Part shown: piece by piece, positions 8,939-38,232 of the stretch
How positions within the stretch are numbered: position 1 is the first letter of the stretch
Layout: every line of letters begins with the position of its first letter
Assembly: GCA_947364365.1 (NCBI GenBank)
Contig: CANASP010000003.1
Coordinates: 62,001 to 126,000, forward strand
Length of the DNA: 64,000 bases
From: an uncultured Alistipes sp.
GTDB lineage: Bacteria > Bacteroidota > Bacteroidia > Bacteroidales > Rikenellaceae
Direction of reading: 5' to 3'
Notes under the pieces: generated by a model
What the model was told of the DNA's origin: nothing
Databases searched by the model: none
Seen by the model: only the letters and a program-made list of their open reading frames with translations
Translations under genes and position numbers: made by a program

Positions 8939-8953
8939 CGGCTGTCGGGATTA

Positions 8954-9526
8954 TTAGCGGCCCTGCTCGGCGGCACCGCGCGAAGCACGCGTCACGCGCA
9001 CGGCGCAGACGGCCGTCGTGGCGGGCGTCACGAACTTGAGGTTCTCGAAGCTCAGGTCGCCGACGAAGATCGTCTTGCCCACGTTGAGCTCCGTCACGTC
9101 TACCACGACCTCGTCGGGCAGGTTCTCGACCAGCGCGCTCACGGTCACCTTGCGGGCCGACAGCACGAGCTTACCGCCGACCTTCACACCGGCGGCGTTG
9201 CCGGTCAGGCGGACGGGAATGGCGATCGACACGGGCTTGCCGGCGGCGATGCGGTAGAAGTCGAGGTGGAGAATCTCCTCACGGACGGGGTGGAACTGGG
9301 CCTCGCGGAGCACGGCCTGCACCTTCTCGCCCTCGAAGTCGAACTCGACGATGTAGGAGTTGGGGGTGTAGATCAGGGGCTTGATCTCGCGGGGGTCGAC
9401 CGAGAAGTTGACGGTCTCGCCATTGCCGCAGAGGACGCAGGGTACCAGACCCTCGCGACGGACGGCCTTGGCGGCCTTCTTGCCGAAGTCTTCGCGCTTG
9501 ACGGCTTTTACGGATACGGTTTTCAT
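8954..9526 (-). CDS. rplY: Ribosomal protein L25, Ctc (long form)
   Basis: A 190-residue L25/Ctc protein with the 5S rRNA-binding N-terminal L25 domain (GKKAAKAVRREGLVPCVLCG) and the C-terminal TL5/Ctc beta domain (IPVRLTGNAAGVKVGGKL, LPDEVVVDVTELNVG). It binds 5S rRNA in the 50S subunit. The short tail ASRGAAEQGR is typical of the variable end. It is first in a two-gene operon with pth and has its own promoter at 9615-9622. Confidence 0.94.
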   Translation of the reverse strand: MKTVSVKAVKREDFGKKAAKAVRREGLVPCVLCGNGETVNFSVDPREIKPLIYTPNSYIVEFDFEGEKVQAVLREAQFHPVREEILHLDFYRIAAGKPVSIAIPVRLTGNAAGVKVGGKLVLSARKVTVSALVENLPDEVVVDVTELNVGKTIFVGDLSFENLKFVTPATTAVCAVRVTRASRGAAEQGR

Positions 9527-9921: not shown

Positions 9922-11952
9922 TTACCAGATCACCACGCGCTCCTCCTCGGGGAGGAACATGGCGCCATCGGTGATGCCGAAGGCGTCGTAGAACGACTGG
10001 AGGTTGCGCAGCGTGGCGTTGACGCGCCACTTGCCCAGCGAGTGGACGTCGATCTTGGTCAGGCGCGCGATCTCCTCGTCGCGGATGTTCTGACCCCACA
10101 GCGCGGCATAGGCCAGGTAGAAGCGCTGGGCGGCGGTGAAGCCGTCGACGGGTGCGGGCTCCTCGCCGCCGAGGGCGTTGCGGAGCGCCGTCCAGGCCAC
10201 GCGCAGACCGCCCTGGTCGGCGATGTTCTCGCCCAGCGAGAGCGAGCCGTTGGCATGGAGCGCCGGCTGGTCGCCCTGCGCGGGCAGCACCTCGATGGCG
10301 TCGAACTGCTTGACCAGGATGTCGGTCTTGGCCTTGAAGGCCTCGGCGTCGGCCTCGGTCCACCAGTTGTTCATGTTGCCGTCCTTGTCGAACTGGCGGC
10401 CCTGGTCGTCGAAGCCGTGGGTCATCTCGTGGCCGATCACCACGCCGATGGCGCCGTAGTTGACCGCGTCGTCGGCATCGGGGTTGTAGAACGGCGGCTG
10501 GAGAATGGCCGCGGGGAAGCAGATCTCGTTGGTCGTGGGGTTGTAGTAGGCGTTGACCATCTGGGGCGGCATGTGCCACTTGGCGCGGTCGACGGGACGA
10601 CCCAGCTCGGCGAGGTTGTCGGCCGTGTACCAGCGGCTGGCCTCGACGATGTTCTCCCAGTAGCTCTTCGCGGGGTCGATCGTAAGGGTCGAGTAGTCCT
10701 TCCACGTGTCGGGATAGCCGATCTTGACGGTGAACGACGCCAGTTTCTCGCGGGCGCGGGCCTTGGTCTCGTCCGACATCCAGTCGAGCGCGTCGATGTG
10801 CTCGCCGAGGGCCGTCTGGAGGTTCTTCACCAGCGACAACATGCGCTCCTTATCCTTGGCGGGGAAGTACTTGGCGACATACATCTCGCCCACGGCCTCC
10901 GACAGCGTGCCGTTGGGCACCGACATGGCGCGCTTCCAGCGGGGACGCATCTCCTGCTGGCCGGCCATCGTGCGGCCGAAGAAGTCGAACGACGCCTGCT
11001 GGAAATCGTCGCTCAGGTACGACGTGGCGGCGTTGATGTACTGTGCGGCGAGGTAGTAGCGCACGTCCTCCAGGGGCAGCGTGCGCAGCAGCGCGTCGGC
11101 ATTGGCCAGCGCCGAGGGGGTGGTGACGATGATGCGGTCGAAATCGCCCAGACCCAGCGCCTCGTAGTAGGCCGCCCAGTCGATCGCTCCGTAGGCCTTC
11201 TCGAAGTCGGCCTTCGACATGGGGTTGTACTGCGCGGCGATGTTGCGCAGCTCGACGTTGGACCACATCTTCTCGGCCAGGCGGGTCTCGACGGCGAGGG
11301 TCTTCTCGACGGCCGCGGCGACCTCGGCCTCGGGGATGCCGGCGAGCGCGAAGATCTTGGCGAGATAGCCCTTGTAGGCTTCGCGGATCGAGGCGTTCTC
11401 GGCGTCGAGGTAGTAGTCGCGGTTACCCATCATAAGACCCGACTGCGAGACGTAGAGGGCGTTGACGTCGCTGTTCATCAGGTCGGCCTCGACGCCCATC
11501 GAGAAGAAGGGGTTGCAGACCGAGGCGTGGAGCGAACCGATCACGCGGCCCAGCTCCGTACGGTCGCCGATCCCGAGCAGCGCGCGGACCCCTTCGGCAA
11601 CGGGCGCGGCGCCCTCGGCGTTGAGACGCACCGAGTCGAGGCCCATGCGATAGAGGTCGGAGATCTTCTGCTCGACCGTGCCGGGGGCGGCATCGAGACC
11701 GGCCATCTGCGAGAAGAGCTCGTTGATGCGGATCTCGTTGTTCTCGCGCAGCACGTCGAAGGCGCCGTAACGCGAAAATTCGGGTTTGAGCGGATTGCGG
11801 GCCTGCCAGCCGCCGGTGGCGTACTGGTAGAAATCCTCGTTGGGGGCCACCCCGAGGTCGAAATTGGCGAGGTCGATGGCCGGGACTTTCGTCGTATTGT
11901 TCTGACAGGCTGCCATAAGGAATACGCAGGAAAGCATACAGAGTTTTTTCAT
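9922..11952 (-). CDS. M13 (neprilysin/PepO) family zinc endopeptidase lipoprotein
   Basis: A 676-residue secreted metallopeptidase. The start at 11952 gives a lipoprotein signal with lipobox MAAC at residue 16, so it is probably anchored in the envelope. The M13 N-terminal domain begins GVAPNEDFYQYATGGW. The zinc site HEMTH lies near residue 507, and the third ligand and structural motif GENIADQGG near 575. Length fits the family (about 670-680). It probably cleaves oligopeptides in the periplasm or outside. It is monocistronic, with its own promoter box and terminator. An upstream in-frame extension to 12045 is AT-rich noncoding sequence and was not used. Confidence 0.92.
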   Translation of the reverse strand: MKKLCMLSCVFLMAACQNNTTKVPAIDLANFDLGVAPNEDFYQYATGGWQARNPLKPEFSRYGAFDVLRENNEIRINELFSQMAGLDAAPGTVEQKISDLYRMGLDSVRLNAEGAAPVAEGVRALLGIGDRTELGRVIGSLHASVCNPFFSMGVEADLMNSDVNALYVSQSGLMMGNRDYYLDAENASIREAYKGYLAKIFALAGIPEAEVAAAVEKTLAVETRLAEKMWSNVELRNIAAQYNPMSKADFEKAYGAIDWAAYYEALGLGDFDRIIVTTPSALANADALLRTLPLEDVRYYLAAQYINAATSYLSDDFQQASFDFFGRTMAGQQEMRPRWKRAMSVPNGTLSEAVGEMYVAKYFPAKDKERMLSLVKNLQTALGEHIDALDWMSDETKARAREKLASFTVKIGYPDTWKDYSTLTIDPAKSYWENIVEASRWYTADNLAELGRPVDRAKWHMPPQMVNAYYNPTTNEICFPAAILQPPFYNPDADDAVNYGAIGVVIGHEMTHGFDDQGRQFDKDGNMNNWWTEADAEAFKAKTDILVKQFDAIEVLPAQGDQPALHANGSLSLGENIADQGGLRVAWTALRNALGGEEPAPVDGFTAAQRFYLAYAALWGQNIRDEEIARLTKIDVHSLGKWRVNATLRNLQSFYDAFGITDGAMFLPEEERVVIW

Positions 11953-11976
11953 GGTAAATAGGGATGTTGTTGCGGG

Positions 11977-11984
11977 CAAAAATA
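11977..11984 (-). promoter_or_regulatory. Promoter -7 box for the M13 peptidase
   Basis: Minus-strand TATTTTTG matches TAnnTTTG, 24 bp before the chosen start at 11952. This supports that start over the upstream one. Confidence 0.55.
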
Positions 11985-12322
11985 TAAAATAGTTTCTCAC
12001 GATCTTATTTTTATTGTTTTTTTTTTCAATTTTAGCATAGTGCACAAGACAAGTTGCTCCCGAACAACCTTATATTAGAAACAAAAGCGTCAAGAAAATC
12101 CGAAGGCTGTGATTCAAATCTGTATGCAAGTATTTATTTGCACATGGTGAGGCTATCGAACTGCAAAACCACAGCTACAACGAATAAAAGGACACATTTG
12201 GCTTGCGCTTTTGGAATCATGCGCGCCACAAACAACATCATAAAAACAGCCACAAAAAATAGCCAATATTTTTGATTTGCGCTTTTTATTTTTAACTTTG
12301 TATTTATATAAACAGAAGTTAT
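11985..12322. other. AT-rich intergenic region before the small membrane protein
   Basis: About 340 bp of clearly AT-richer sequence. An open frame of 73 codons at 12054-12275 has no start context or family resemblance and is not called. Apart from the promoter at 12271-12300, nothing functional is recognised. It marks the left side of the low-GC patch. Confidence 0.6.
12271..12300 (+). promoter_or_regulatory. Promoter of the low-GC gene pair
   Basis: TTTG at 12271-12274 and TAACTTTG at 12293-12300 are separated by 18 bp, close to the Bacteroidota -33/-7 arrangement. The first gene starts at 12323. Confidence 0.6.
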
Positions 12323-12505
12323 ATGAAAAAAAGAAAATTCAAAGTCCTTTATTACCTTTCACTGTTTTTATTTTTGCTTTACATTATTTTATCTTTCGCA
12401 AAGGCACCAATCGACAAGATCTATTTAGACATACTGTATATAATACCAGCTATATCAATAATAACTTATCATTATTTAAATAGACATACAAATGAAAAAG
12501 ATTAA
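12323..12505 (+). CDS. Small two-helix membrane protein, function unknown
   Basis: A 60-residue protein with a basic start (MKKRKFK), two hydrophobic stretches (about residues 9-26 and 34-48) and a hydrophilic tail. It has its own promoter and overlaps the following lipoprotein gene by 14 bp, so the two are probably co-translated. Base composition is far more AT-rich than the surroundings, indicating recent acquisition. I recognise no family. A small membrane partner or immunity-type protein for the next product is possible but unproven. Confidence 0.55.
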   Translation: MKKRKFKVLYYLSLFLFLLYIILSFAKAPIDKIYLDILYIIPAISIITYHYLNRHTNEKD

Positions 12506-13235
12506 ATTTTTTGGCTTAGCTTTATTTACCATCGCGAGTATTAGTTCATGCAACATCGACGAAAATCCTACCATCAACAACGACGAGAATAAAATCGAGG
12601 ATATTGAAAGTATAACACAAAAATACGTATTAGCGCATGAAAACATGTTTAAAGCTTTCATGCGAGAAAGTAAAAGAACCATCGAATCAGATGGCAACCT
12701 AACCGAATTTTGCGAAAATTTCAAAGAAACTTACCTATCCAAATTAGCAACCAAAGAAGAGAAGCAGCTTCTTAATAAAAAACAAGTAGCTCTTACTCGT
12801 AATCCTGAAGGGCTATCCACGCTAATTCCAGATATTTGGATGGCAAAATTCACAGACGTATTGTTTAATGAAAACGTAGGTTTATTGCGTGAAAAGATCA
12901 ATCAATTTTACAGCGATTCATTTTTTATAAATTTGAATCCGACAGAACAGCTGGGATTAAGAATTCAACTCGAAACATTGGAAAAATATCGAGACGAAAT
13001 GATCAACATGCTAATTGAGGCTTATAAAAACGAAAATATATTAACAAGAATGTCTCCTGGCGATAGGATGATTTGGGTTGAATGTTCTCATACAATGCCA
13101 GAAGAATATAGAAAAATGACATTCCAAACATGCATGGCTCTATGGGGGTTTTTACCTATAACTGGAATTTCAACTATAACAGGAGCTGCTGGTATAGCGA
13201 GCTTGCTTTACGATTGGTTTGAACTTATTTTTTAA
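12492..13235 (+). CDS. Putative lipoprotein with hydrophobic Gly-rich C-terminus, function unknown
   Basis: A 247-residue protein with a lipoprotein signal (MKKIKFFGLALFTIASISSC, Cys20) followed by an acidic helical body rich in Lys, Glu and Asn. The last 35 residues are hydrophobic with ITGISTITGAAGIASLL, resembling a membrane-inserting hairpin, and end in DWFELIF. Codon use is strongly AT-biased compared with all neighbours. It overlaps the upstream small membrane gene and is followed by its own terminator. No family is recognised. The lipoprotein body plus insertable tail next to a small membrane protein could be an effector/immunity arrangement, which is speculation. Confidence 0.7.
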   Translation: MKKIKFFGLALFTIASISSCNIDENPTINNDENKIEDIESITQKYVLAHENMFKAFMRESKRTIESDGNLTEFCENFKETYLSKLATKEEKQLLNKKQVALTRNPEGLSTLIPDIWMAKFTDVLFNENVGLLREKINQFYSDSFFINLNPTEQLGLRIQLETLEKYRDEMINMLIEAYKNENILTRMSPGDRMIWVECSHTMPEEYRKMTFQTCMALWGFLPITGISTITGAAGIASLLYDWFELIF

Positions 13236-13240
13236 ATGTA

Positions 13241-13270
13241 CGGGGTGCCTCTTTTATAGAAGGCACCCCG
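13241..13270 (+). terminator. Terminator of the low-GC lipoprotein gene
   Basis: CGGGGTGCC pairs with GGCACCCCG around an AT-rich loop just after the stop codon. The T tract is poor, but the stem is strong. Confidence 0.6.
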
Positions 13271-13281
13271 CTTTGCAATGG

Positions 13282-13311
13282 AAAAGAGCCGCTTGCGAGG
13301 CGGCTCTTTTT
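13282..13311 (-). terminator. Terminator of pgk
   Basis: AAAAGAGCCGC and GCGGCTCTTTT form an 11-bp stem with U tracts on both strands. It lies 6 bp past the pgk stop and can also stop readthrough from the left. Confidence 0.85.
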
Positions 13312-13316
13312 CGGTG

Positions 13317-14576
13317 TTAGTCGCGGATCGCGTCGACGCCCGGCAGCGTGCCGAACTCGATGTATTCGAGCAGTGCACCGCCGCCCGTCGAGATGTAGGA
13401 GACCTGGTCGGCCAGACCGAACTTGTTGATGCAGGCCACCGAGTCGCCGCCGCCGATGAGCGAGTAGGCGCCGTTCTTCGTAGCCTCGGCGATGGCCAGG
13501 GCCACCTCCTTGGATCCCGTGGCGAACTTGTCGATCTCGAAGACGCCCACCGGACCGTTCCAAAGGATCGTCTTGCAGCCGAGGATGTGCTCGCGGAAGG
13601 CCTTCTTGCCCTCGTCGGCGATGTCGACGCCCTCCCACTCGTCGGGGATGTTGCCCACGGGGGCCGTCGAGGTGTTGGCATCGGCCGAGAAGTCGTCGGC
13701 GATCAGCGCGTCGGGCGACATGACCAGCTGCACGCCCTTCTGCTTGGCCAGCTCGAGGATTTCGAGCGCCACGGGGAACATGTCGGGCTCGCAGATCGAC
13801 TTGCCGACCTTGCCGCCCAGTGCGCCGGCGAAGGTGTAGGTCATACCGCCGCCGATGATGATCGAATCGACCTTCTCGATCAGGGCCTTGATGACGCCGA
13901 TCTTCGACGAGACCTTCGAACCGCCGACGATGGCGCAGAAGGGATGGGCCGGAGCCTCCATGAGCGACGAGATGGCCTTGACCTCCTTCTCCATCAGGTA
14001 GCCGAACATCTTGTCCTCGAAGTGCTTGGCGATCAGATAGGTCGAAGCGTGCTTGCGGTGGGCCGTGCCGAAGGCGTCGTTGATGTAGCAGTCGGCATAC
14101 GAAGCCAGCTTCTTGACGAACTCCTTCTGCGGACCCTCCTTCAGGGCCTTCTTGGCGGCGTCCTTCTCCTCCTTGGTGGCGTCGTCGGCCAGACCGCGGG
14201 GCTTGCCCTCCTCCTCGGCGTAGAAACGCAGGTTTTCCAGCAGGACGACCTCGCCCGGCTTGATCGCCTTGCACATCTCGGCGGCCTTCTCGCCCATGCA
14301 GTCGCCGGCGAAGGCGACCTTCACACCGAGGTTCTTCTCGATGGCCGGGACGATCTGTTCGAGCGAGTACTTGGGATCGGGATTCTTCTTGGGACGCCCC
14401 ATGTGCGACATGAGGATGACGGCGCCGCCCTCGGCCAGCACCTTCTTGACGGTGGGCATGGCGGCACGGATGCGGGTGTCGTCGGTCACCTGGCCCTCGG
14501 CGTTGACGGGCACGTTGAAGTCCACGCGAATGATCGCGCGCTTGCCTTTGAAATCGTAGTTGTCGATCGAAATCAT
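13317..14576 (-). CDS. pgk: Pgk, phosphoglycerate kinase
   Basis: Glycolytic enzyme converting 1,3-bisphosphoglycerate and ADP to 3-phosphoglycerate and ATP in the cytosol. The 419-residue protein starts at [23 protein letters not shown], the canonical N-terminal motif. It also shows [15 protein letters not shown], the [13 protein letters not shown] hinge motif, and the C-terminal [11 protein letters not shown] phosphate loop. An upstream in-frame extension was rejected because it crosses the promoter region. The gene is monocistronic, with a promoter box at 14625-14632 and a strong terminator. Confidence 0.96.
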
Positions 14577-28882: not shown

Positions 28883-29473
28883 TCAGCCGGGATTGGCGCG
28901 CGGGGCGGTCTTCAGCCCCTCGTCCCAGAACTTTTCGAGCGCCCGCCGCCGCTCCATGCCGAAGACATAGTCCAGACGGGTCAGGTAGCCGTAGGCGTCG
29001 TAGGACTTTCCGGCATAGCCGTACTCGACCACCGCCTCGTAGATGCGCTCCAGCCCCTCGGTCAGCGCGAGCCGGAAAGCCTCCTCGACCGACGGATCGA
29101 CATCGGCGCGGGCGACCCACACGGCATAGGGGAAGGGCTCGGCGGCGGCGAGCAGCGGGGCGAGCGGGGCGTCGTCGCCGTAGAAATAGGCGAGGATGCC
29201 GGCCTCGGGCTCGCACTGGGCCAGGGCCGCGATCATCACGGGCGACGGCGCGGCGATGCAGTAGTCGGTGGCCGGCCGCACCCCTTCGAGCGACGGGACG
29301 ACGTGCGAGGGCACCAGCGCGAAGTCGGCTTCGCCCCGGCGGAAACGGTCGATGACGGCGGGAAAATCGGACAACAGCAGTTCGGCCCGCAGCTCAGCTG
29401 CGTGCGCGACCCCATAGAGGAAGGGTATCGTATCGAGATACGACACGGCGGCTATACGGGTGACTGTGGCCAT
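28883..29473 (-). CDS. mqnA: MqnA-like protein (futalosine pathway), shortened
   Basis: A 196-residue homologue of chorismate dehydratase MqnA, the first enzyme of the futalosine menaquinone pathway. Family features visible are IAAVSYLDTIPFLYG at the start, EADFALVPSHVVPSL near residue 50, TDYCI, and FPYAVWVARADV. Usual length is about 240-280; here the segment after TDYCI (around residues 95-110), which normally has 50-60 more residues, is short. The family SYxNT motif has Asp in place of Asn. I keep the family name but catalytic competence is uncertain. It is monocistronic with its own promoter. Confidence 0.7.
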   Translation of the reverse strand: MATVTRIAAVSYLDTIPFLYGVAHAAELRAELLLSDFPAVIDRFRRGEADFALVPSHVVPSLEGVRPATDYCIAAPSPVMIAALAQCEPEAGILAYFYGDDAPLAPLLAAAEPFPYAVWVARADVDPSVEEAFRLALTEGLERIYEAVVEYGYAGKSYDAYGYLTRLDYVFGMERRRALEKFWDEGLKTAPRANPG

Positions 29474-29568: not shown

Positions 29569-29600
29569 TTGACAAGGGGGTATCGGCCGTCGTATATTTG
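29569..29600 (+). promoter_or_regulatory. Promoter of the phage-like cluster
   Basis: TTG (29569-29571, in a TTGACA context) and TATATTTG (29593-29600) spaced by 21 bp, the best -33/-7 pair in the window. It predicts a leader of about 290 bases before the first gene. Confidence 0.65.
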
Positions 29601-29638: not shown

Positions 29639-29724
29639 TTATCGACAATGATTGCAGATTGGTTCTCAATCGTATAGCGACCCTTATCAACATCTTTCAA
29701 CATTTCGTCAACACGTTATCGACA
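29639..29724 (+). repeat. DnaA-box-like phased repeat array
   Basis: TTATCGACA (29639-29647), then TTATCAACA (29684-29692), TTTCAACA (29695-29702), GTCAACA (about 29707-29713) and TTATCGACA (29716-29724). The last four lie 10-11 bp apart, one helical turn. They resemble the DnaA box TTATCCACA; another near-match TTTTCCACA is at 29534-29542. No dnaA gene is nearby. Confidence 0.5.
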
Positions 29725-29893: not shown

Positions 29894-30862
29894 ATGGCTC
29901 TCTTCACCCGAATTCCGCTCTCGGGAGCGCCGCTCGGCGGCCGGCTCCTCTACGGCGTCGCAGGCAGCGCGCCCCAGACCTTCGACCTGCGGCTCTACGA
30001 CGCAGCGACCCGCGCGCCGCTCGGCGCCAGACGTTTCACCGGCGTCGCCTCCTTCGCCTCGGACGTCGCGCCCCTGCTACGCAGGGCCCTGCGCTTCGTC
30101 CCCTCCTCCGGTTCCACGGGCTTCTGCGAAGCGACCGACCGCACCCTTCGGGTCGTCGCCGAGGCGACAGGGACGCTCGACGGAACGGCGACCGCCGCAT
30201 CCCGCACCTTCCTCCCCTGCGCGGGCGAGGCGGCGGCCCCGGCGCTGCTCACGTCGATGCCGCGCGAACGGCTCCTCGCGCCGGGCGAGTGCGACGAGCT
30301 GACGCTGTTGCACGAAGGGGCGCTGACCGTCACCGTCACGGCTTCGGACCACCGCACGACAGACGCACGCAGCTACCGCACGGCGACGGGAGGGCTCCTC
30401 CTCTTCCGCATCGCGGCCGACGACTTCGCCGGAGCCGAACGCCTCGAAGTCGACGCAGGACCCTGCGGCCGCATCGGCTACACGCTGCTCCCCGCGCCCG
30501 AGGGGGCGCAGCGACTGGCGTGGCGCACGGCCGAGGGGTCGATCGAGCACTACACCTTCCCCGTCGGAGTGCGGACGACGATCGCCGCCGCCAAGCGCCG
30601 GGCCTGCGGCTCGGAAGAGCACGTCGCCACGACGACGCAGCGGGAGCGGCGCGACCTCCTGCGCTCGGCCTGCGAAACGGGCGAGACGCTCGAAGCGCTG
30701 GCCGGCCTGCTCGCCGCACCGCAGGTGTGGGCCTGCACGGGCGGGGCGTACCGGCCCGTCGACGTGCTGACCACCGAGGCCGCGATCCGCCGCCACGGCG
30801 CACTCGGCACGTTCGACATCGAGATCCGTTCCACCGCCAGAGAAGCCCTGCCATGGAACTGA
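29894..30862 (+). CDS. Phage-like protein A, probable tail/adsorption component
   Basis: A 322-residue protein, start MALFTRIPLSG chosen where coding character begins (an open frame to 29735 is Pro/Arg-rich noise). It is beta-rich with no signal peptide. The pattern RLAWRTAEGSIEHYTFPVGV followed by RRDLLRSACETGETLEALAGLLAAPQVW is reminiscent of a structural protein seen in Bacteroidales prophages next to the following gene. I recognise no catalytic motif. It is the first gene of the cluster and overlaps the next by 10 bp. Confidence 0.55.
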   Translation: MALFTRIPLSGAPLGGRLLYGVAGSAPQTFDLRLYDAATRAPLGARRFTGVASFASDVAPLLRRALRFVPSSGSTGFCEATDRTLRVVAEATGTLDGTATAASRTFLPCAGEAAAPALLTSMPRERLLAPGECDELTLLHEGALTVTVTASDHRTTDARSYRTATGGLLLFRIAADDFAGAERLEVDAGPCGRIGYTLLPAPEGAQRLAWRTAEGSIEHYTFPVGVRTTIAAAKRRACGSEEHVATTTQRERRDLLRSACETGETLEALAGLLAAPQVWACTGGAYRPVDVLTTEAAIRRHGALGTFDIEIRSTAREALPWN

Positions 30863-33255
30863 CGATCGACCAGATGCCCTGCGACCTGGGCGACGCCCCG
30901 ATCCGCATTCCGGGATACGATGCCGACACGGCCGCCGACATCGACGCCTGCCGCACGGGGCGGTCGCTGACGATCGAGCTCCCGGCGACCCCGCGCAACG
31001 ACCGAGCGACCCGCTTCGCCCGCGACCCCCACGGCGCCGAACGGTTCGACGCCACGCTCCACCGCGCCGAGCTGCGGGCCGAGGGGGCGCTGCTGTTCGA
31101 AGGCACGGTCCGGCTGCTGGCCCTCTCCGAAGCGGGCTACACGCTCCAGATCCGCGAGGGTGGGGCCGCATGGGCCCGGCAGGCGGCGCTGCGCACCCTC
31201 GACCAGCTGGGCTTCGATCTCCGCATGCGGCTCGACACGGCCACCGTATGCGCGGGCTGGACGGGCAGCGACCCCGTGAAGTTCTTCCCCGTGGCGCGCG
31301 ACGCCTGGCCGCAGCGCAACGCCCCGCAGGACCTGCTGCCCGACGAACGGATGCTCTCGGTCGACGACTACCGCCCCTTCCTCCACATCCGTTCGCTCGC
31401 GGAGCGGATCTTCGCCGAGGCGGGCTACACGGTGCAGAGCCGCTTCTTCGCCTCGGAGTTCTTCCGCTCGCTCTACATGAGCGGCGCCTACGCCCGGCGC
31501 GACACGGCGGCGCTCGACGCGCGGATGGGCTTCGTCGCGGGGCGGCGGGACGAAGCGTCGGCGACGGGCGACGACGTAGGACGCGTCTACGCCGACCCCA
31601 AGGCCCTCGCCCACACCGTGGGCAACTTAGTCGACACGGCCGTGCCGCTGACGCCCGACGCCAACGGCGAGCCCATGACCGGACTGCGCAACAACGGCGG
31701 GTGTTTCGACACCGTCGACGGCGCCGTCCGCTTCACCCCCACGGCCGAGGTCGACGCGGCGTTCGAATACACGCTGCGCTACACCACCGACCACCGCATC
31801 CTCGACCGCACGCGGCTGCGGGGCTACGATGTGATCTATCTGGGTCCGGGAGCAGAGGTGAGCTGCCCGCTGGCCAACCGTTATGCCGACCGGCGGGCGG
31901 CCATCGCACCCGGGCACAGCTACCTGGCGATCGTCTTCGACCACGCCGCGGAGGCATGCTACCGCCTCGTCTACACCCGCAACGGGGTGGCAGGGGTGCA
32001 GTGGAGCGACTTCGAAGGGCGCTCGGCCCGGGTCGTCGTCCCGGCGTCGGGCACGGCGACCGACCCGCAGCTGCACGTGCGGGGGAGCGACGGCACGTGG
32101 GCCCCCTACGCGGGCGACTGGGCCCTCTACGACGGCCACATCGGCGAAACGGGGACGACCACCGTGACGCTGAAGGTCCGCGACACCGCCCGGCGCTGCT
32201 CGCCGTCGTCGCCCGCGCGGTTCGATCTCATCTACTTCGGCGGCGCCGAACCGGGCATGCGGCTCACGCTGCACCGGGAGTGCCGCGTGGCGAGCAGTTT
32301 CCAGGCCGCACCGGGCTACGGCACGCCGCTCGCCTTCGCCGACGTCGCCCGGGGAGGCATCCGGCAGGCCGGGCTGCTCGCGGCGCTCGCCCACCTGTTC
32401 AACCTCCGCTTCCACACCGACCGCCGCACCCGCACGGTCACGGTGGAGCCCGCCGACGCCTTCTACGCCGGGCCCGAGACGGACTGGAGCGACCGCACCG
32501 ACTTCGCGCATCCCGTCGAGCGGCGGATGCTCGCCCCCAGCCATGCCGAGAAGCGCACTTGGCGTTACCGCACCGGCGAAGGGGCCGCCGCACGCCTCGA
32601 AACCGACGAAGGCGCCGCTCCGGGCAGCTGGAGCTACGAGGCACCGACCTTCGCCGCCGGGGAGGGCGAGCAGGTGGTGCCGAACCCGCTCTTCGCGGCC
32701 TCGGCGAGCGTCGCCGGGAGCTACCGCAACGCACCGTCAGCCCTGCTGCTCTCGGCGGGCGACCGCGACGACCCGTCCGACGACGGATCGTTCGTCACGC
32801 CGCGCATCGTAGGCTATGCGGGCCTCCACCCGCTGCCCGGGGGCGAACGCTGGGGCCACCCCTGGGGTCAGGCCTCCTACCCGCTCGCGGCGTTCCACTT
32901 CGCGGGCGACGACCTGGCGGAGCCCTTCACACTCGGATTCGACGACCGCGACGGGGCCGAGGGGCTCCATCGCTTCTACGACCGGCAACTGGAGCAGGAG
33001 GCCACGGGCGAGGAGATCGCCCTTTGGCTGCGCATCGCGCCCCACGAGTTCGAGGCGCTCGGCAACCCCTCGCCGGAGGCGCCGTCGCTGCGCTCGGTCT
33101 TCCGCCTCGACACGGGCGACGGCTGCGTCCTGGCCTCGCTCCGCCGCATCGAAGCCTACGATCCCGAAGCGGCCTCGGTGCGCTGTCTCTTCCGCCGGCT
33201 GCCCGAGGACCCCGAGGATCGGGGCGACGACGGCCCCAACGCCCTGCGCCGATGA
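30853..33255 (+). CDS. Phage-like protein B, large tail or minor structural protein
   Basis: An 800-residue protein. The opening LTIELPATPRNDRATRFARDP and FDATLHRAELRAEGALLFEGTVRLL matches a Bacteroidales prophage structural family that begins with such a beta module. The middle holds Gly/Tyr-rich beta strands, and the region RTVTVEPADAFYAGPETDWSD is typical of the same family. There is no transmembrane segment or signal. It is likely a tail-tip or adsorption protein by family resemblance; the receptor is unknown. Its stop overlaps the next start by 4 bp. Confidence 0.6.
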   Translation: MELTIDQMPCDLGDAPIRIPGYDADTAADIDACRTGRSLTIELPATPRNDRATRFARDPHGAERFDATLHRAELRAEGALLFEGTVRLLALSEAGYTLQIREGGAAWARQAALRTLDQLGFDLRMRLDTATVCAGWTGSDPVKFFPVARDAWPQRNAPQDLLPDERMLSVDDYRPFLHIRSLAERIFAEAGYTVQSRFFASEFFRSLYMSGAYARRDTAALDARMGFVAGRRDEASATGDDVGRVYADPKALAHTVGNLVDTAVPLTPDANGEPMTGLRNNGGCFDTVDGAVRFTPTAEVDAAFEYTLRYTTDHRILDRTRLRGYDVIYLGPGAEVSCPLANRYADRRAAIAPGHSYLAIVFDHAAEACYRLVYTRNGVAGVQWSDFEGRSARVVVPASGTATDPQLHVRGSDGTWAPYAGDWALYDGHIGETGTTTVTLKVRDTARRCSPSSPARFDLIYFGGAEPGMRLTLHRECRVASSFQAAPGYGTPLAFADVARGGIRQAGLLAALAHLFNLRFHTDRRTRTVTVEPADAFYAGPETDWSDRTDFAHPVERRMLAPSHAEKRTWRYRTGEGAAARLETDEGAAPGSWSYEAPTFAAGEGEQVVPNPLFAASASVAGSYRNAPSALLLSAGDRDDPSDDGSFVTPRIVGYAGLHPLPGGERWGHPWGQASYPLAAFHFAGDDLAEPFTLGFDDRDGAEGLHRFYDRQLEQEATGEEIALWLRIAPHEFEALGNPSPEAPSLRSVFRLDTGDGCVLASLRRIEAYDPEAASVRCLFRRLPEDPEDRGDDGPNALRR

Positions 33256-33521
33256 ACCGCCGCCAACGCATCCTTGCGCCCCGGCTCGCCCGGCTCATCG
33301 GCGGGCAGCTGCCCGCCGGAGCCGTAGAGCTGCTGCTCGACCGGGGACTGCTCGACCTGAGGGCCTGCGAGCGTCACGTGGTGGCCGACGAGATCGGGCG
33401 GCTCGAAAGCCGGGGCGTGCCCCGTTGCGGCGCGATGTACCGTGTCGCCGAGGAGCTGGGGTGCTCCTACGCCAAAGTCAGAACACTCTATTACGAAACC
33501 TTCAAACAACCCAAACGATGA
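33252..33521 (+). CDS. Small helix-turn-helix protein
   Basis: An 89-residue basic protein starting MNRRQRILAPRLARLIGG. The C-terminal part CGAMYRVAEELGCSYAKVRTLYYE looks like a helix-turn-helix, so it probably binds DNA. It lies between the tail-like and protease genes with 4-bp overlaps on both sides. It could be a small terminase-like subunit or a regulator; neither is shown by sequence. Confidence 0.6.
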   Translation: MNRRQRILAPRLARLIGGQLPAGAVELLLDRGLLDLRACERHVVADEIGRLESRGVPRCGAMYRVAEELGCSYAKVRTLYYETFKQPKR

Positions 33522-34423
33522 AACCATCCATCCGCATCACCGACCGGGCCGACACATGCCTCATCGAGATCGAGGGGACGATCGGCGTCCCCGAAGCGTG
33601 GCAGTTCGACGAGCCCGAGGCCCGCGTGGCCACCTACGAGACCTTCCGCGAGACGGTGCGCCGCATCGCGGCGGTCGACGCCCGCGAAATCGTCGTCGAG
33701 ATCCGCTCGACGGGCGGCGACGTCAACGACGCCCTGCTGATCCACGACGCCCTGCGCTCGCTGCCGGGGCGCATCACCACCCGCTGCCACGGCTACACCG
33801 CCTCGGCGGCGACGCTCATCGCCCAGGCCGCGTCGGAGGGGTGTCGCGAGATCGCCCCCAGCGCCCTCTACCTGATCCACCGCGCCGCCTGCTCGACCGA
33901 AGGCAACGCCGCGGAACTGACGGCGACCGTCGACCTGCTGCGCCGCACCGACGAACGCATCGCCGCGGTCTATGCCGCCCGCTCGGGACGCCCGGCCGAG
34001 GAGTTCGAGCGCCTCATGGACGAGAACAACGGCACGGGGCGCTGGCTCTCGCCCGCCGAGACCGTCGCCGCAGGGCTCGCCGACCGCATCGCGGGCGGAG
34101 AACAGCCCGTCGACGCAGCCCTGCCGCGCATCGCCGAGGGGGTGCGCACGGGGTGGCGGCGTCTCATGGAGCGGCTCGGGGCCGAGCCCGCGGCAGAGCC
34201 GCTGCCCGAGCCGGTCAACGTCCTCCACACCGACGATCCCGGGCGGCCGCTCCCCGCCGCGACCTCCGAAGCGCTGGCCGCCGCAGCCGCCGAACGGGCC
34301 CGCAACGCCGCGGCGCCGACCCGCACCCGCCCGCGCGAGGATCCGTCGCTGGGCGATTCGATCCTCTCGGCCAACCAGCGCGCCTACGCCGACGACGCAC
34401 GGCGGTTCCACAAGAGCTGCTGA
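33518..34423 (+). CDS. ClpP-type (S14-like) prohead protease
   Basis: A 301-residue protein. The ClpP/crotonase fold is visible: RSTGGDVNDALLIHDAL, catalytic Ser in GYTASAAT near residue 95, catalytic His in LIHRAACS near 121. The C-terminal third is Ala/Pro/Arg-rich and scaffold-like, as in head maturation proteases that double as scaffolds, ending DDARRFHKSC. It lies directly upstream of the capsid gene, as expected for prohead protease. Confidence 0.82.
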   Translation: MKPSIRITDRADTCLIEIEGTIGVPEAWQFDEPEARVATYETFRETVRRIAAVDAREIVVEIRSTGGDVNDALLIHDALRSLPGRITTRCHGYTASAATLIAQAASEGCREIAPSALYLIHRAACSTEGNAAELTATVDLLRRTDERIAAVYAARSGRPAEEFERLMDENNGTGRWLSPAETVAAGLADRIAGGEQPVDAALPRIAEGVRTGWRRLMERLGAEPAAEPLPEPVNVLHTDDPGRPLPAATSEALAAAAAERARNAAAPTRTRPREDPSLGDSILSANQRAYADDARRFHKSC

Positions 34424-34426
34424 GCG

Positions 34427-34454
34427 TTGAAAATTGAAAGTTGAAAATCGAAAA
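34427..34454 (+). repeat. AT-rich heptamer tract before the capsid gene
   Basis: Four 7-bp units: TTGAAAA, TTGAAAG, TTGAAAA, TCGAAAA. It lies between the protease stop and the capsid start (40 bp upstream), where an AT-rich unstructured leader could aid initiation. Confidence 0.6.
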
Positions 34455-34493
34455 TGGGGAATCATCCCTCCGAACCTAAAAAAACCTACTACC

Positions 34494-35471
34494 ATGAGTT
34501 ACCTCGAAAATGCGAAACAGTACACCGGCACCGAGCTGGAAACCGTCTTCTTCCGCCCCATGCTGACGGGCGCCTCGGCCCGGGATCTGGGCGTCAGAAT
34601 CCTCTACAACCTCCCCGCGCCGACCACCGTCCAGCTGTGGGACGGCCAGCGCAACATCCTCCAGAAGTACGACACGGCAGGCTGGACGGGCGGCGCCGCG
34701 GCCGCGAAGTACCAGAAGACCATCCATCTCAAGCGCGTCAAGGCCGAGCTGGGATTCTCGGCGGCCGACTACTTCTCGATGGTCTTCGAGCGCATCGCCG
34801 CCCGCGCCGACGTCAACATGGACGACCTCTCGGGCACCGAGCTCGAACAGGCCGAGACGGCGCTCTTCCGTCAGGCCGTGGCCGAGAACATCCGCGCCAC
34901 GATGTGGCTGGGCGACAGCGCCGCCGCGTCGGGTTACAACACCTTCGACGGCTTCCTGAAGGCCGTCGAGGAGTTCGCCGCCGACGAGCAGATCCACACC
35001 GCGACCTACACGGCCGCCTCGCTCGCCGAGCCCGGGCGCACCGTGGAGATCTTCGACGACCTGTGGCAACATGCCGACGGACGGCTCCAGGACCTGCGCG
35101 CCGAGGGGCAGCTGGCGTTCTTCGTCACCTCCGACCTCTACTACCTCTACGAGAAGTACCTCGACGCGAAGGGGGCCGACGCCGCCTACGTCGACACGAT
35201 CAACGGCCGCAAGACGCTCGCCTACCACGGCATCCCGGTCGTCGACGTACGCCTGGGCAAATACCTCCCCGACACGACGTTCAACCAGTCGTTCTGCATG
35301 CTGACCGACCGCCGCAACCTCGTCCTGGCGGTCAACACGGCCGACTTCCCCGGCAACGAGGTGCGCATGTGGTACAACCCCGACGAGATGGAGAACCGCC
35401 AGCGGGCGCTCTTCATGGCCGGCTGCGACGTATTGGACGAGGCGCTGGTCTGCTACGCCTACCGGCAGTAG
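34494..35471 (+). CDS. Major capsid protein, HK97-like fold (probable)
   Basis: A 325-residue protein starting MSYLENAKQYTGTELETVFF. It resembles capsid proteins of Bacteroidales phages: the TVQLWDGQRN segment, the FSAADYFSMVFERIAARADV helix, a domain with GIPVVDVRLGKYLPDTTF, and the end FCMLTDRRNLVLAVNTADFPGNEVRMWYN then ALFMAGCDVLDEALVCYAY. It follows the ClpP-type protease, the usual order. No N-terminal scaffolding extension is obvious. Confidence 0.72.
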   Translation: MSYLENAKQYTGTELETVFFRPMLTGASARDLGVRILYNLPAPTTVQLWDGQRNILQKYDTAGWTGGAAAAKYQKTIHLKRVKAELGFSAADYFSMVFERIAARADVNMDDLSGTELEQAETALFRQAVAENIRATMWLGDSAAASGYNTFDGFLKAVEEFAADEQIHTATYTAASLAEPGRTVEIFDDLWQHADGRLQDLRAEGQLAFFVTSDLYYLYEKYLDAKGADAAYVDTINGRKTLAYHGIPVVDVRLGKYLPDTTFNQSFCMLTDRRNLVLAVNTADFPGNEVRMWYNPDEMENRQRALFMAGCDVLDEALVCYAYRQ

Positions 35472-35499
35472 GATCGGTCGCCCGACGCCGGGCCCGGGT

Positions 35500-35596
35500 C
35501 CGCAGCCGGCGGAGGCGGCTCTGCGAGCGACAGCGAAAAGAGCGGCCCTCCGCCTCGGGCGGCTGCGGGCCGCCGCTTCGGACTTATCCGAAGCGG
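35500..35596. repeat. Dispersed repeat copy 4 with hairpin, between capsid and portal genes
   Basis: An inverted pair CCGCAGCCGGCGGAGG (35500-35515) and CCTCCGCCTCGGGCGGCTGC (35549-35568), then a hairpin CGCTTCGG...CCGAAGCG (35575-35596). The right part matches the copy at 38292-38342 almost base for base. It fills the 257-bp gap between capsid and portal genes. Confidence 0.6.
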
Positions 35597-35728
35597 GCAA
35601 AAACGAGCCCGGCCTGCTGCGCCGGCTGCGGACCGAACAACCATCTTGAAAAACGCCGGACGACGCGGCCCGGGGCGCGGGGTGCACACCCGCTCCGGTC
35701 GCCCGGACGGCCCGAACCTTCCGAACCC

Positions 35729-36961
35729 ATGAATCCACCCACCGAACGACACCGCACGGCCGTAGCCGTGACCAACCGCACCGATCCCTACCTCACGCTG
35801 GGCGCCGGACGCATCGACGACGAGCGCATCTGGCGCTGGGGCGACGACAACCTCTTCCCCGCGGCGCTGACGCAGATGGCCCGCCGCTCGACCACCCACC
35901 GGCGCATCATCAACGACAAGGCCGACTACATCGCCGGCAAGGGCTTCGCCTGCGACGAGGGGCAGACGCGGCTCAGGGCCTTCATCGACCGGGCCAACGG
36001 CGACGGCGAGAGCCTGCGCCGCATCATCTCGCGCCTGGCCTTCGACAAGGCGCTCTTCGGCAACGCCTTCCTGGAGGTGGTGACCGACCCCGCCCACTCG
36101 TTTCTCTCGCTCTACCATCAGGACGCCTCGCGCTGCCGCGTGGCGCGCGACTCGCGACACATCATCCTCCACCACGACTGGACGGCCTTCGACGCCTCGG
36201 AGGCGCAGACGCTGCCGCTCTACCCGCTCTTCGAACCGCAGACCGACGGCACGCTGCGCTCGATGGTCCACTACAAGGATTACGAACCCGCGTTCGAGCA
36301 CTACGGCGTGCCGCCCTACATCGCCGGATTCGGCGTCTCGGCCATCGCCTACAAGACCGACCGCTGGAACATCGCGCGGCTCGACAACTCGTTCCAGCTC
36401 TCGGGCGTCATGCTGCTCGACGCCGGAGTCGACAGCGACGAGGAGGCCGACCGCATCGTGCGGCTGGCCGAGAGCAAGTTCGCCGGCAACCCCGGGCAGG
36501 TGATGTTCATGCTGCGCGCGGGCGAGGGCGACGGGGCCGACAACTCGCGCTTCATCCCCATCGACTCGCGCCAGGAGGGCGACTGGAAGGCGCTCCACGA
36601 GCAGGCCGTGGCCGACATCGTGGTGGCCCACTCGTGGTTCCGCACGCTGAGCGGGCTCGACTACGCCGCCGGCTTCAGCGCCGAGCGCATCCTCCACGAG
36701 TACGAGGTGGCGCTCAACACGGTGATCCTGGCCGAGCAGGCCGAGCTGCTCGAACCCGTCCGCGCGCTGCTCGCGGCCATACTCGGCATCGACGCCTCGT
36801 CGCTGGCCGTAATCAACCGCCCGCCGACGCGTTCGAAACCCATCTACATGAAGGTGTGGGAGGCCCGCAAGGCCGACGGCCTCGACTACGACCCCGACGA
36901 CGAGCGCCAGCAGCAGTTCCTTTCCGAAATCACCAAGTACAACATCCGAAGCATCGAATGA
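35729..36961 (+). CDS. Phage portal protein
   Basis: A 410-residue protein: RRIINDKADYIAGKGF, then FDKALFGNAFLEVV, YHQDASRCRVARDS, and GVPPYIAGFGVSAIAYKTDR followed by NSFQLSGVMLLDAG, patterns of PBSX/HK97-class portals that form the dodecameric DNA gate at a capsid vertex. There is no signal peptide or membrane helix. The start at MNPPTERHR is preceded by the repeat-bearing gap. The stop overlaps the connector start by 4 bp. Confidence 0.85.
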   Translation: MNPPTERHRTAVAVTNRTDPYLTLGAGRIDDERIWRWGDDNLFPAALTQMARRSTTHRRIINDKADYIAGKGFACDEGQTRLRAFIDRANGDGESLRRIISRLAFDKALFGNAFLEVVTDPAHSFLSLYHQDASRCRVARDSRHIILHHDWTAFDASEAQTLPLYPLFEPQTDGTLRSMVHYKDYEPAFEHYGVPPYIAGFGVSAIAYKTDRWNIARLDNSFQLSGVMLLDAGVDSDEEADRIVRLAESKFAGNPGQVMFMLRAGEGDGADNSRFIPIDSRQEGDWKALHEQAVADIVVAHSWFRTLSGLDYAAGFSAERILHEYEVALNTVILAEQAELLEPVRALLAAILGIDASSLAVINRPPTRSKPIYMKVWEARKADGLDYDPDDERQQQFLSEITKYNIRSIE

Positions 36962-37431
36962 AAACCCTCATCTCACCCACACAGGTCCGCCGCCTCGCCT
37001 TCGGCGACGGCGAACAGCTCGCCCCCGACGCCATCACGCAGCCCGACATCGCGGCGGCCGAGGAGCGCCACCTGGTGCCCGTCGTCGGCCGCGCGCTCCA
37101 CGAAAAACTGCTCGGCGGGAGCTACCCCGAGCTCGTCGACGACTACCTCGCCGCACCCGTAGCGCTCCTCGCACGCCTGGCGGCCCAGCCGCGCCTCGAC
37201 CTGCGCACGGGACGCCGCGGCACCACCGTCGCCTACGACGACGCGGCACGGCCGGCCGACGAGGCGACGCGCCGAAGGCTGATGCAGGCGCTGCGCAGCG
37301 AGGCGCGGGCGCTGCTGCGCCGGGCCGCGCGCCATCTGGCCACAGAGAACCGCCGCTATCCCGAATACGTCGACGCGTCGAACATCTTAAACCGCTGCAC
37401 CACCGATGGAGGCCTCGTACAGATTCATTAG
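36958..37431 (+). CDS. DUF6712-like head-tail connector
   Basis: A 157-residue helical protein (IAAAEERHLVPVVGRALHEKLLGG, then AEARALLRRAARHLATENRRYPEYV), like the DUF6712/gp6-type connector that follows portals in Bacteroidota prophages. It would complete the head neck. Its C-terminus overlaps the holin gene by 26 bp. Confidence 0.65.
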   Translation: MKTLISPTQVRRLAFGDGEQLAPDAITQPDIAAAEERHLVPVVGRALHEKLLGGSYPELVDDYLAAPVALLARLAAQPRLDLRTGRRGTTVAYDDAARPADEATRRRLMQALRSEARALLRRAARHLATENRRYPEYVDASNILNRCTTDGGLVQIH

Positions 37432-37828
37432 CGGCACAGCGGCCTCGCTGGCCGCCCTCGCGGCACCCGCAGGGCCGCTCGTCGCATGCGCCGCGGGGTG
37501 CATCGCCGCCGACTTCGTAGCAGGCATCGCCGCCTCGCGCGCCGAGGCCCGCAAGACCGGGCAGCGGTGGTATTTCGAGAGCTGCGAGGCGTGGCGCACC
37601 GTCCGCAAACTGGCGCTGGCATCGACGGCGATCGTCATGGCCGGCCTGTTGGACGGCTGTCTCGAAGGGGTCGTGCGGCTCGATCTGGCGCGCATCTTCG
37701 CGGGCTTCACCTGCGGCGTGGAGCTCTGGTCGTTTCTCGAAAACGCCGCGACGATCTCCGACGCCCCGCTCTTCCGCCTCATGCGCCGCTACGCCCGGCG
37801 CCGCATCGGAAAGGAGGCCGGGCGATGA
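37406..37828 (+). CDS. Phage holin-like membrane protein
   Basis: A 140-residue protein with three hydrophobic segments: about 10-30 (AASLAALAAPAGPLVACAAGC), about 68-86 and about 95-112. The middle SRAEARKTGQRWYFESCEAWRTVRKL is the charged stretch common to Bacteroidales phage holin families. It would form pores for lysin release. A basic C-terminal tail and a 4-bp overlap with the lysin gene support the lysis-cassette call. Confidence 0.75.
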   Translation: MEASYRFISGTAASLAALAAPAGPLVACAAGCIAADFVAGIAASRAEARKTGQRWYFESCEAWRTVRKLALASTAIVMAGLLDGCLEGVVRLDLARIFAGFTCGVELWSFLENAATISDAPLFRLMRRYARRRIGKEAGR

Positions 37829-38232
37829 GCCGGGGCCTGCGCAACCGCAACCCGGGCAACATCCGCCGCTCGGGGGTGCGCTACAAGGGCGAGGTGCGCC
37901 CCTCGACCGACCCGGCGTTCAAGCAGTTCGGGTCGATGGCGCTGGGCTACCGGGCCATCTTCGTCCTCGTGGAGACCTACCGCATCCGCTACGGGATCGA
38001 CACCGTGCGGGGGATCGTCTCGCGCTGGGCCCCGTCCTCGGAGAACGACACCGGGGCCTACATCCGCACGGTCTGCCGCCTGACGGGACTCGACGCCGAC
38101 CGCAAGATCGACACGCGCGACCGGGCGACGATGACGGCGCTGGCGGCAGCCATCTCGCGCGTGGAGAACGGCACGGAGGCCGTCATGCGCGATGTCGAGG
38201 CGGGGTGGGAGCTGTTCTGCGATGAAAAATGA
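37825..38232 (+). CDS. P5-like phage lysin (structural protein P5 family)
   Basis: A 135-residue protein starting RGLRNRNPGNIRRSG, then FGSMALGYRAIFVLVETYRIRYGIDTVRGIVSRWAPSSENDTGAYI, the signature of the P5-type muralytic family encoded by many Bacteroidales prophages next to a holin. It presumably cuts peptidoglycan. There is no signal peptide, which fits holin-dependent release. It is the last gene before the dispersed repeat copy at 38.29 kb. Confidence 0.8.
   Translation: MSRGLRNRNPGNIRRSGVRYKGEVRPSTDPAFKQFGSMALGYRAIFVLVETYRIRYGIDTVRGIVSRWAPSSENDTGAYIRTVCRLTGLDADRKIDTRDRATMTALAAAISRVENGTEAVMRDVEAGWELFCDEK

Follow-up and report, generated by a model that had tools for sequence, protein, structure and literature searches.

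Gene transfer agents (GTAs) have been defined as Caudoviricete-derived phage-like particles whose genes are endogenized, often at several loci, and are mostly inherited vertically; the particles mostly carry random host DNA, the GTA's own genome is not fully packaged in one particle, and the DNA is delivered to other cells (PMC9662315, excerpts). In the excerpted text of the same source, the alphaproteobacterial type I GTA (RcGTA; Rhodogtaviriformidae) shares Caudoviricete derivation, a distribution over several chromosomal loci and vertical descent with the system described here, and its large terminase (TerL) is encoded within the GTA genome as gene g2. The FpGTA of Faecalibacterium likewise has a gut host, two separate loci, a compact head operon, and a holin and endolysin. 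According to the available excerpts of PMC12946183, TerL and TerS are part of the FpGTA head operon, the baseplate, tail fibre and lysis genes form the second locus, and the purified particles contain about 9 kb of DNA and have no identifiable tail.

Here, we analysed a stretch of 64,000 nucleotides from an uncultured Alistipes sp. of the family Rikenellaceae (the window), which contains a block of phage-like genes. The best reading of the block and of its counterparts in the family is a vertically inherited, split, GTA-like system. To our knowledge, no earlier GTA-like system is known in Bacteroidota. The Rikenellaceae system differs from RcGTA in belonging to another phylum and, judging from gene order and the relatives of its TerL, in its phage ancestor; its TerL is encoded apart from the head genes, beside an S24 repressor, and the lineage of the window is without a tail-tube-like gene. 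Unlike in FpGTA, the head, tail-tip and lysis genes share one locus, with TerL set apart. The Rikenellaceae system is described here from its gene content. The block also resembles capsid-forming phage satellites (cfPICI) in that its compact head operon is not accompanied by a full set of tail genes. These satellites are mobile and have an integrase, whereas the block has no integrase in or beside it and shows vertical descent.

The head block and its phage relatives

Among the open reading frames of the window, nine intact frames were confirmed at 29894..38232, all on the forward strand. As the preliminary description had noted, they are tightly joined, with overlaps of 4–26 nt at five junctions: 4 nt of stop and start at g2/g3, g3/g4, g6/g7 and g8/g9, and 26 nt at g7/g8. 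Gaps of 70 nt and 257 nt separate g4/g5 and g5/g6, respectively. The G+C content of the block (0.68–0.73 in 2-kb windows) lies within the range of the surrounding DNA, in agreement with the host-like base composition described before, and the nearest two genes on either side belong to the host (CorA, MqnA, ComEC and a methyltransferase), which confirms the location between mqnA and comEC in the window.

The first two genes encode putative tail-tip-like proteins, namely g1 (29894..30862, 322 aa) and the large g2 (30853..33255, with its start at 30853 or 30874). Neither matched a family in Pfam or PHROGs; their homologues belong to the tail genes of free phages, for g1 at the matching place in contigs L211 (2e-10) and, weakly, L374 and L379 (also alignment A4), and for g2 in L202, L372, L374, L375 and L379 (alignment A3). 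This is consistent with the two upstream tail-like proteins reported earlier. The small HTH-like protein g3 (33252..33521, 89 aa) has a profile match at the corresponding place in phage L379 (1e-4) and is present in 16 of the 20 family regions that were fetched; it is a candidate regulator or small terminase, and no small terminase was identified. The matches of g4 to g9 in Pfam and PHROGs agree with the head and lysis functions previously assigned to them. They comprise a ClpP-type head protease (g4, 33518..34423; PF00574 3e-26, phrog_94 2e-39), a major capsid protein candidate (g5, 34494..35471; phrog_1623, a virion protein, 9e-10, and phrog_11320, 1e-4, both also matched by the capsid of phage L202), a portal protein (g6, 35729..36961; phrog_11226 9e-21, with a Pfam portal match slightly below the family cut-off), a DUF6712 connector-like protein (g7, 36958..37431; PF20459 5e-10), a holin (g8, 37406..37828; PF05105 3e-6) and an endolysin-like protein (g9, 37825..38232; phrog_873 6e-45). 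Searches of PDB sequences with the capsid and g2 gave nothing useful. None of the nine proteins matched terminase, integrase, tape measure or tail-tube families in Pfam and PHROGs, and no integrase was present among them or the two open reading frames on each side.

The block was initially described as having an unusual gene order, but its order is that of related free Bacteroidota phages. In the contigs L379 (IMG/VR 3300037461_000299) and L370/L202 (IMG/VR 3300010163_000110), the genes run g1, g2, tape measure, (HTH), protease, capsid, tail-tube-like, portal and DUF6712, contiguously on one contig, unlike the split loci of Rikenellaceae. A DUF6712 gene follows the portal in phages L370 and L376–L379 as well. 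The protease of L370 is of the XkdF type, whereas that of the window is of the ClpP type. The free phages have tape-measure-like (704–745 aa) and tail-tube-like genes, both of which are absent from the lineage of the window. A relocated tail-tube-like gene was rejected, as profile A6 had no match anywhere in the window's own genome and 11 other genomes, yet recovered it from the head locus in each of the five genomes expected to have one. From this comparison, the window's lineage appears to have lost both tail genes.

A pattern search located a promoter-like element, TTGACAAGGGGG-N12-TATATTTG, upstream of the block (29569..29600, forward strand). It occurs exactly once in 13 of the 14 genomes searched and twice in the remaining one (G160), and the reversed pattern occurs in none of the 14. 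The element was found in 46 of 86 oriented head loci, which is a lower count because 19 of the 105 loci were not oriented. The leader contains three DnaA-box-like TTATCNACA repeats on the forward strand (29639, 29684 and 29716, spanning 29639..29724); the whole window has four copies against 0.24 expected, and the repeats recur at similar offsets in loci of the same genus. The head block is predicted to have its own dedicated promoter.

Large terminase locus and descent of both loci

The preliminary description had found no terminase, which is correct for the block, whereas the genome does have one. The search for a terminase elsewhere, suggested at the time, revealed a full TerL gene on another contig (C21, 7657–9072; phrog_38 1e-81, also PF03237), so the block is not a terminase-less remnant. 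The ATPase and nuclease motif residues of TerL are invariant in 20 sequences, and profile A5 detected TerL in 181 of 200 family genomes. PF03237 found it in 21 of 22 genomes, and the one it missed (G049) has TerL by profile A5. Among 80 kept matches, the TerL of phage L202 had the highest identity (59%). In 19 of 20 loci, a gene for a LexA/CI-type repressor is divergent to terL; the two repressors scanned consist of HTH and Peptidase_S24 domains, and the Ser, Lys and Ala-Gly residues are kept in 17 of 19 aligned sequences. Other terminase leads were discarded. Matches to phrog_2 were weak in 12 of 12 genomes, and the three places read (L061, L063 and L064) encode a host ATPase, which we take to be PhoH. 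PF03354 had no match in the window's own genome, and we attribute the PF04466 matches seen in 3 of 22 genomes to other prophages.

The portal gene was found in 181 of 200 genomes of Alistipes and its relatives (105 of 109 good-quality genomes), as a single match in 174 of the 181, and g1, g2, capsid and portal occur in the same order in all 20 fetched regions. This conserved order is far beyond chance and answers the earlier call to look for the block in related genomes. Both loci are present in 175 genomes, portal only in six, TerL only in six, and neither in 13 (Fisher p 7e-12). The loci are separate: in G087, which is assembled as one contig of 3.38 Mb, the portal lies at 1.26 Mb and TerL at 3.27 Mb. 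The distance is just 11–18 kb in G037 and G057.

Our phylogenetic comparison covered 23 genomes, after the outgroup and non-shared rows were dropped and G160 and G016 were left out for want of an rpoB match. Tree distances correlated with those of rpoB for the portal (r 0.80) and TerL (r 0.73), and 0 of 1000 label shuffles reached such values; the portal shared 11 of 20 splits with rpoB and TerL 10 of 20, against at most 3 in shuffles. Both loci are vertically inherited and co-diversify with the host. The dN/dS calculation proposed earlier gave medians of 0.15–0.35 for eight block genes, with every pairwise value below 1, and 0.09–0.23 for terL (six computable of eight pairs). The eight compared block genes are under purifying selection.

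Proposed function and alternatives

We consider it probable that the block holds the head, tail-tip and lysis genes of a GTA-like system that came from a Bacteroidota tailed phage through a Rikenellaceae ancestor, and whose TerL has moved to a second locus behind a LexA/CI-type repressor. At the sequence level, this is supported by phage homology, two loci, their co-occurrence, vertical descent, purifying selection, invariant TerL residues and the absence of tail genes. As in the definition of GTAs, the proteins are Caudoviricete-derived, judging from the homology of the head, lysis and TerL genes and the gene order of free phages; the genes are endogenized at separate head and terL loci; and inheritance is mostly vertical, as seen from the congruence with rpoB. 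The domesticated, GTA-like particle kept by selection that was among the readings first offered gains support from the family-wide conservation, this congruence and the low dN/dS. Since intact, host-inherited genes for a shell and for DNA loading occur in nearly all members, these bacteria may make particles that take their DNA to other cells. Joint packaging of the head and terL loci is implausible where they lie megabases apart. Several observations count against a GTA-like reading. In a faecal virome study, Rikenellaceae belong to the most abundant families of the total DNA, but they are absent from the families it names with GTA-like packaging, which are given for 23 of 25 events (PMC12946183, excerpts). 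Besides, no small terminase was identified, the tail-tube-like gene is missing from the own genome and 11 others, the lysis genes and the protease are unevenly conserved, and some members look decayed or incomplete.

The particle would probably be stub-tailed, the portal bearing a short or tube-less stub of g1 and g2, and packaging is probably switched by DNA damage. Damage would cause self-cleavage of the repressor, TerL would then be made, capsids from the head operon would be filled with host DNA, and holin and endolysin would release the particles. More tentatively, the system may represent an undescribed GTA lineage of Bacteroidota, ancestral to Rikenellaceae, in which a long-tailed phage was cut down to a tube-less, stub-tailed DNA particle under split control. 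The head operon would stand on a private promoter with a TTATCNACA array (possibly bound by DnaA and linked to replication) and the packaging motor under an SOS-type repressor, with filling by host DNA only after DNA damage.

Several other readings were weighed against the GTA-like system. A domesticated phage system with another use, such as interference with infecting phages by decoy capsid, portal or terminase parts and no delivery of host DNA, is unlikely. Purifying selection and single copies would fit any host function, and the loss of the tail-tube-like and tape-measure-like genes makes a working DNA-delivery particle less obvious. However, the TerL ATPase and nuclease residues are kept, TerL co-occurs with the head locus, and most loci of the same genus retain holin and endolysin, a whole set that a decoy would not need. 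We regard as quite unlikely a lysis or killing device, in which holin and endolysin release capsid-like particles that kill as a bacteriocin, or a fraction of the population is simply lysed, and packaging is incidental, although the lysis genes of the window are intact and g1 and g2 are large tail-tip proteins. Tailocin-type bacteriocins have a tail tube or sheath and are without capsid and terminase. Here, capsid, portal and TerL, which killing does not require, are kept, no contractile sheath or tube was found, the own genome has no tail-tube-like gene, and the lysis genes are less well conserved between genera than the rest.

Prophages and satellites are recognized by an integrase in or beside the element, patchy presence and trees discordant with the host. 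That the block is still a mobile prophage, or a capsid-forming satellite using the functions of another phage, is very improbable: its head operon is compact and its flanks vary between genera, but no integrase is found in it or among the two genes on each side, each locus is present in 181 of 200 genomes, mostly as a single copy, the trees follow rpoB, and the own genome carries its TerL elsewhere. The satellite and trimmed prophage initially entertained are disfavoured. We give almost no credence to a neutral, decaying remnant. Tail genes are missing, and stops occur in the portal and g2 of G139, which also has no TerL match, and in the portal of G020; against this, the other listed portal rows have open frames, all pairwise dN/dS values are below 1 and the private promoter is conserved. 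Neither a contiguous full prophage nor a decaying block confined to one strain, the findings that were to speak against a domesticated particle, was encountered; a decaying copy is seen in one genome, G139.

Rikenellaceae are abundant gut bacteria. If the GTA-like reading is true, they would possess an inbuilt means of transferring chromosomal genes, probably controlled by DNA damage and perhaps active during antibiotic or inflammatory stress, and a further phylum would join the few with known GTAs. The free phages, the genera with a short tape-measure-like gene, and the Alistipes lineages without tube and tape measure would form a graded series for the taming of a phage.

Variation among genera and neighbouring sites

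Individual genomes depart from the family pattern: portal and g2 are missing from G046 (99% complete), although TerL is there, and G013 is without g2. G128 and G054 appear to carry both loci. Little can be read from six of the 13 genomes without either locus (G001, G051, G073, G078, G085 and G111), which are no more than 70% complete. The remaining seven fall in genera g10, g12 and g22, and the six that were placed on the tree (all but G050) form one clade. Holin and endolysin are kept in most loci of the same genus, and many other genera have a block without them. Profile searches detected the endolysin in 8 and the holin in 12 of the 20 fetched regions; among 80 others, the numbers were 63 and 65, respectively. 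In these counts, loci cut by contig ends are scored as without the gene. Of the fetched regions, 4 of 20 have a protease match that is short or weak. Given these patchy lysis genes and weak protease matches, both lysis and maturation must proceed differently in other genera.

The genes flanking the head block differ between genera. The adjacency to comEC had been considered of interest, but not all of the family shares it. At a distance of at most 5 kb, comEC follows the block in 4 of the 20 fetched regions and, with short-flank loci left out, in 31 of 69 others, and a comEC link as a family feature was rejected. A palindrome, TTCAANNNTTGAA (at most one mismatch), is found no more than 60 bp from the start of the repressor gene in 13 of the 19 terL loci that have one, by raw count. 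It is absent from the window, even allowing one mismatch, and the 800 bp preceding the head block contain it in 4 of 20 regions; a common operator for the head and terL loci was therefore rejected. A 14th match, at L196, lies outside a promoter context.

Gene content and phage ancestry of the head block

The block comprises nine tightly overlapping open frames on the forward strand (window 29894-38232), as the preliminary description had it, and its base composition lies inside the range of the neighbouring DNA, in agreement with the host-like composition claimed there. Library searches assigned families to the proposed head protease, capsid-like protein, portal, holin and endolysin, and placed DUF6712 at the position of the supposed connector; the tail-tip-like g1 and g2 matched no library family. 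The block is preceded by genes for CorA and MqnA and followed by those for ComEC and a methyltransferase; whole-window searches found neither tRNA genes nor Rfam matches. The mqnA frame (28883-29473) encodes 196 aa, of which the best PF02621 match covers residues 111-184 only; mqnA frames are longer in some relatives, and the one in the window may be shortened or mis-started. At 11000-14000, the G+C content is lower, at about 0.45 compared with about 0.67 in the flanking sequence, resembling recently acquired DNA.

Relatives of the system occur in one piece on free phage contigs in IMG/VR. The 42-kb contig L379 encodes, in this sequence, g1 (a weak match), g2, a 704-aa protein in the tape-measure position, a g3-like HTH protein (1e-4), the ClpP protease and the capsid, followed by a tail-tube-like protein, the portal and DUF6712. 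A second contig, fetched as L370 and L202, has the gene for the large terminase TerL (59% identity) followed by two small genes, one gene in the g1 position, g2 and the tape measure; next come an XkdF-type protease and the capsid, then the tail-tube-like gene, the portal and DUF6712 (weak, 1e-3), and after these some large genes and an endolysin. Because both show it contiguously, the gene order of the block is that of the phage, and the claim that it is unusual does not hold. The changes from the phage are the departure of terL and, in the lineage of the window, the loss of the tape-measure-like and tail-tube-like genes. Intermediate states between the two exist: a tail-tube-like gene was present in 12 of 20 fetched 20-kb regions and 40 of 80 other loci, a tail-completion-like gene in 14 and 30, and a short protein (100-250 aa) with an end similar, by eye, to that of the phage tape measure in seven and none, respectively, these names denoting position, size and weak similarity with no curated family behind them, except for a weak phrog_1538 match (0.002) of the tape measure in L202.

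Conservation of the head block and of a separate terminase locus

The preliminary description had proposed a search for the block in related genomes, dN/dS estimates and a search for a terminase elsewhere, the results of which follow. The portal was present in 181 of 200 Rikenellaceae genomes, as a single match in 174 of these, and in 105 of the 109 family genomes with completeness of 90% or more and contamination of 5% or less. Among the matches listed other than the own genome, identities were 62-80%, and two of the listed portals (G139 and G020) had an internal stop. The best 80 of 235 portal loci among named genomes were Alistipes, Rikenellaceae and Bacteroidales records; outside the family but in the same order, 3 of 292 genomes matched, all more distantly. 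The order of g1, g2, capsid and portal was identical in all 20 fetched regions. Profiles detected DUF6712 and protease in every one of them, the protease match being short or weak in L048, L050, L055 and L056; the HTH-like g3 was detected in 16 regions, holin in 12 regions and endolysin in eight. In 80 further loci of the family, some of which end at contig ends, lowering the counts, we found portal in 80, DUF6712 in 80, capsid in 79, protease in 74, g2 in 70, g1 in 66, holin in 65, endolysin in 63 and g3 in 39.

The large terminase, reported as missing, is indeed missing from the block but not from the genome: contig C21 of the own genome encodes a full TerL of 471 aa (7657-9072; phrog_38, 1e-81). 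PF03237 matched in 21 of 22 family genomes at a place separate from the head block, and a TerL profile matched in 181 of the same 200 genomes, once in 167 of them. Among 20 aligned sequences, G49, K50, S51, D151, D152, D310, D313, D317, E366, D442 and D445 are invariant; the conserved residues include what we take to be Walker A (PPQHGKS), Walker B (ILDD) and acidic motifs of the nuclease half.

Portal and TerL occurred together in 175 of the 200 genomes, portal alone in six, TerL alone in six and neither in 13 (Fisher p 7e-12, treating related genomes as independent and with 6 of the 13 at most 70% complete). In the 45-row rpoB tree, the six tested genomes that lack both loci, each more than 80% complete, formed one clade (support 100) nested inside the family (support 82), a placement that fits one loss. 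All six portal-only genomes carry g2. Of those with TerL only, G115 has g2, which makes an assembly gap the probable cause of the missing portal there; in G046 (99% complete), portal and g2 are both absent. In G013, portal and TerL are present and g2 was not detected.

Tree distances across 23 genomes correlated between portal and rpoB (r 0.80), TerL and rpoB (0.73), and portal and TerL (0.82), values reached by none of 1000 label shuffles; shared splits numbered 11, 10 and 9 of 20, respectively, against at most three by shuffle. Nei-Gojobori dN/dS, from 30 close pairs picked by portal (18-30 usable per gene), had medians of 0.15 for portal and holin, 0.20 for protease, 0.23 for lysin and capsid, 0.28 for g2, 0.29 for DUF6712 and 0.35 for g1; the highest single value among these eight genes (g3 being outside the set) was 0.78, single values being rough owing to high G+C and saturation. 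For TerL, dN/dS was 0.09-0.23 in six of eight pairs, and the remaining two were saturated.

Several individual loci deserve mention. G139 (C26), with in-frame stops in its portal as well as its g2 and no TerL match, may be in the process of losing the system. The genome G087, a single contig, has an IS110-type transposase ORF (by eye; L037, 5900-6979, reversed strand) between g1 and g2, and the genes on either side remain open. Outside the family, G370 carries two elements of about 8 kb (L081-L086) with a divergent TerL-like gene, a protease-like gene, capsid, portal and DUF6712 and no evident tail genes, and G356 carries a similar one (L087-L088); these may represent a further domesticated or satellite element without a tail. 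In G331, the 20 kb around the match (L089) hold a portal-like gene (weak match to profile A1) and the next small gene, alone among host genes.

Control regions of the two loci

In 19 of 20 loci, terL has a divergent repressor-like gene as its neighbour; in 17 of 20, a protein of 90-125 aa is encoded beside terL. Both repressors scanned contain HTH and Peptidase_S24 domains, and 17 of 19 aligned repressors keep the Ser, Lys and Ala-Gly pair of self-cleaving S24 repressors, residues whose roles we assume from LexA and CI. In 13 of 19 loci, the palindrome TTCAANNNTTGAA occurs close to the start of the repressor gene, covering the promoter that precedes the small gene and terL.

The head block has a separate control region, with the promoter-like pattern TTGACAANGGGG-N(9-15)-TATATTTG (window 29569-29600). 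Exactly one site was found in 13 of 14 genomes searched and two in G160, and the reversed form was found in none of the 14. Coordinate comparison puts one site in each genome at the upstream edge of the head block: it precedes the first block gene by 0.15-1.7 kb where mapped, and the portal by 5.8-7.2 kb in G081, G123 and G160. Downstream of it are TTATCNACA repeats, three in the leader of the window, which has four in total versus 0.24 expected; their offsets recur among loci of the same genus, and in sequence they resemble DnaA boxes. The second site of G160 (L350, C1:366571-366602) has no phage gene in the 3 kb examined there and no TTATCNACA array behind it.

Comparison with gene transfer agents

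The published definition of gene transfer agents names six features (PMC9662315). Three can be read from sequence, and we found all of them: proteins of phage origin, genes endogenized at more than one locus, and vertical co-diversification. Experiments are required for the remaining ones, namely random host DNA inside, incomplete self-packaging and delivery, and we therefore call the system gene-transfer-agent-like, short of a gene transfer agent proper. We regard this reading as probable; the patchy lysis genes and the short protease in other genera slightly lower our confidence in it.

The best comparison is FpGTA of Faecalibacterium (PMC12946183), another compact system that is divided between two loci and has no identifiable tail. 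Titles and abstract openings of the open-licence literature on gene transfer agents or domesticated prophages of Alistipes, Rikenellaceae, Bacteroidales or Bacteroidota, or on DUF6712, gave no account of such a system. In the consulted portion of the faecal study that describes FpGTA, Rikenellaceae are abundant in total DNA yet absent from the families named with GTA-like packaging (PMC12946183), which argues against strong constant activity of the system in this family.

Pieces of this or a related block are also carried as viral contigs by IMG/VR records (L031-L036, L200 and L201) and by the GenBank phage records MT838805 and MT838736; virus catalogues may thus count a chromosomal locus as a free virus.
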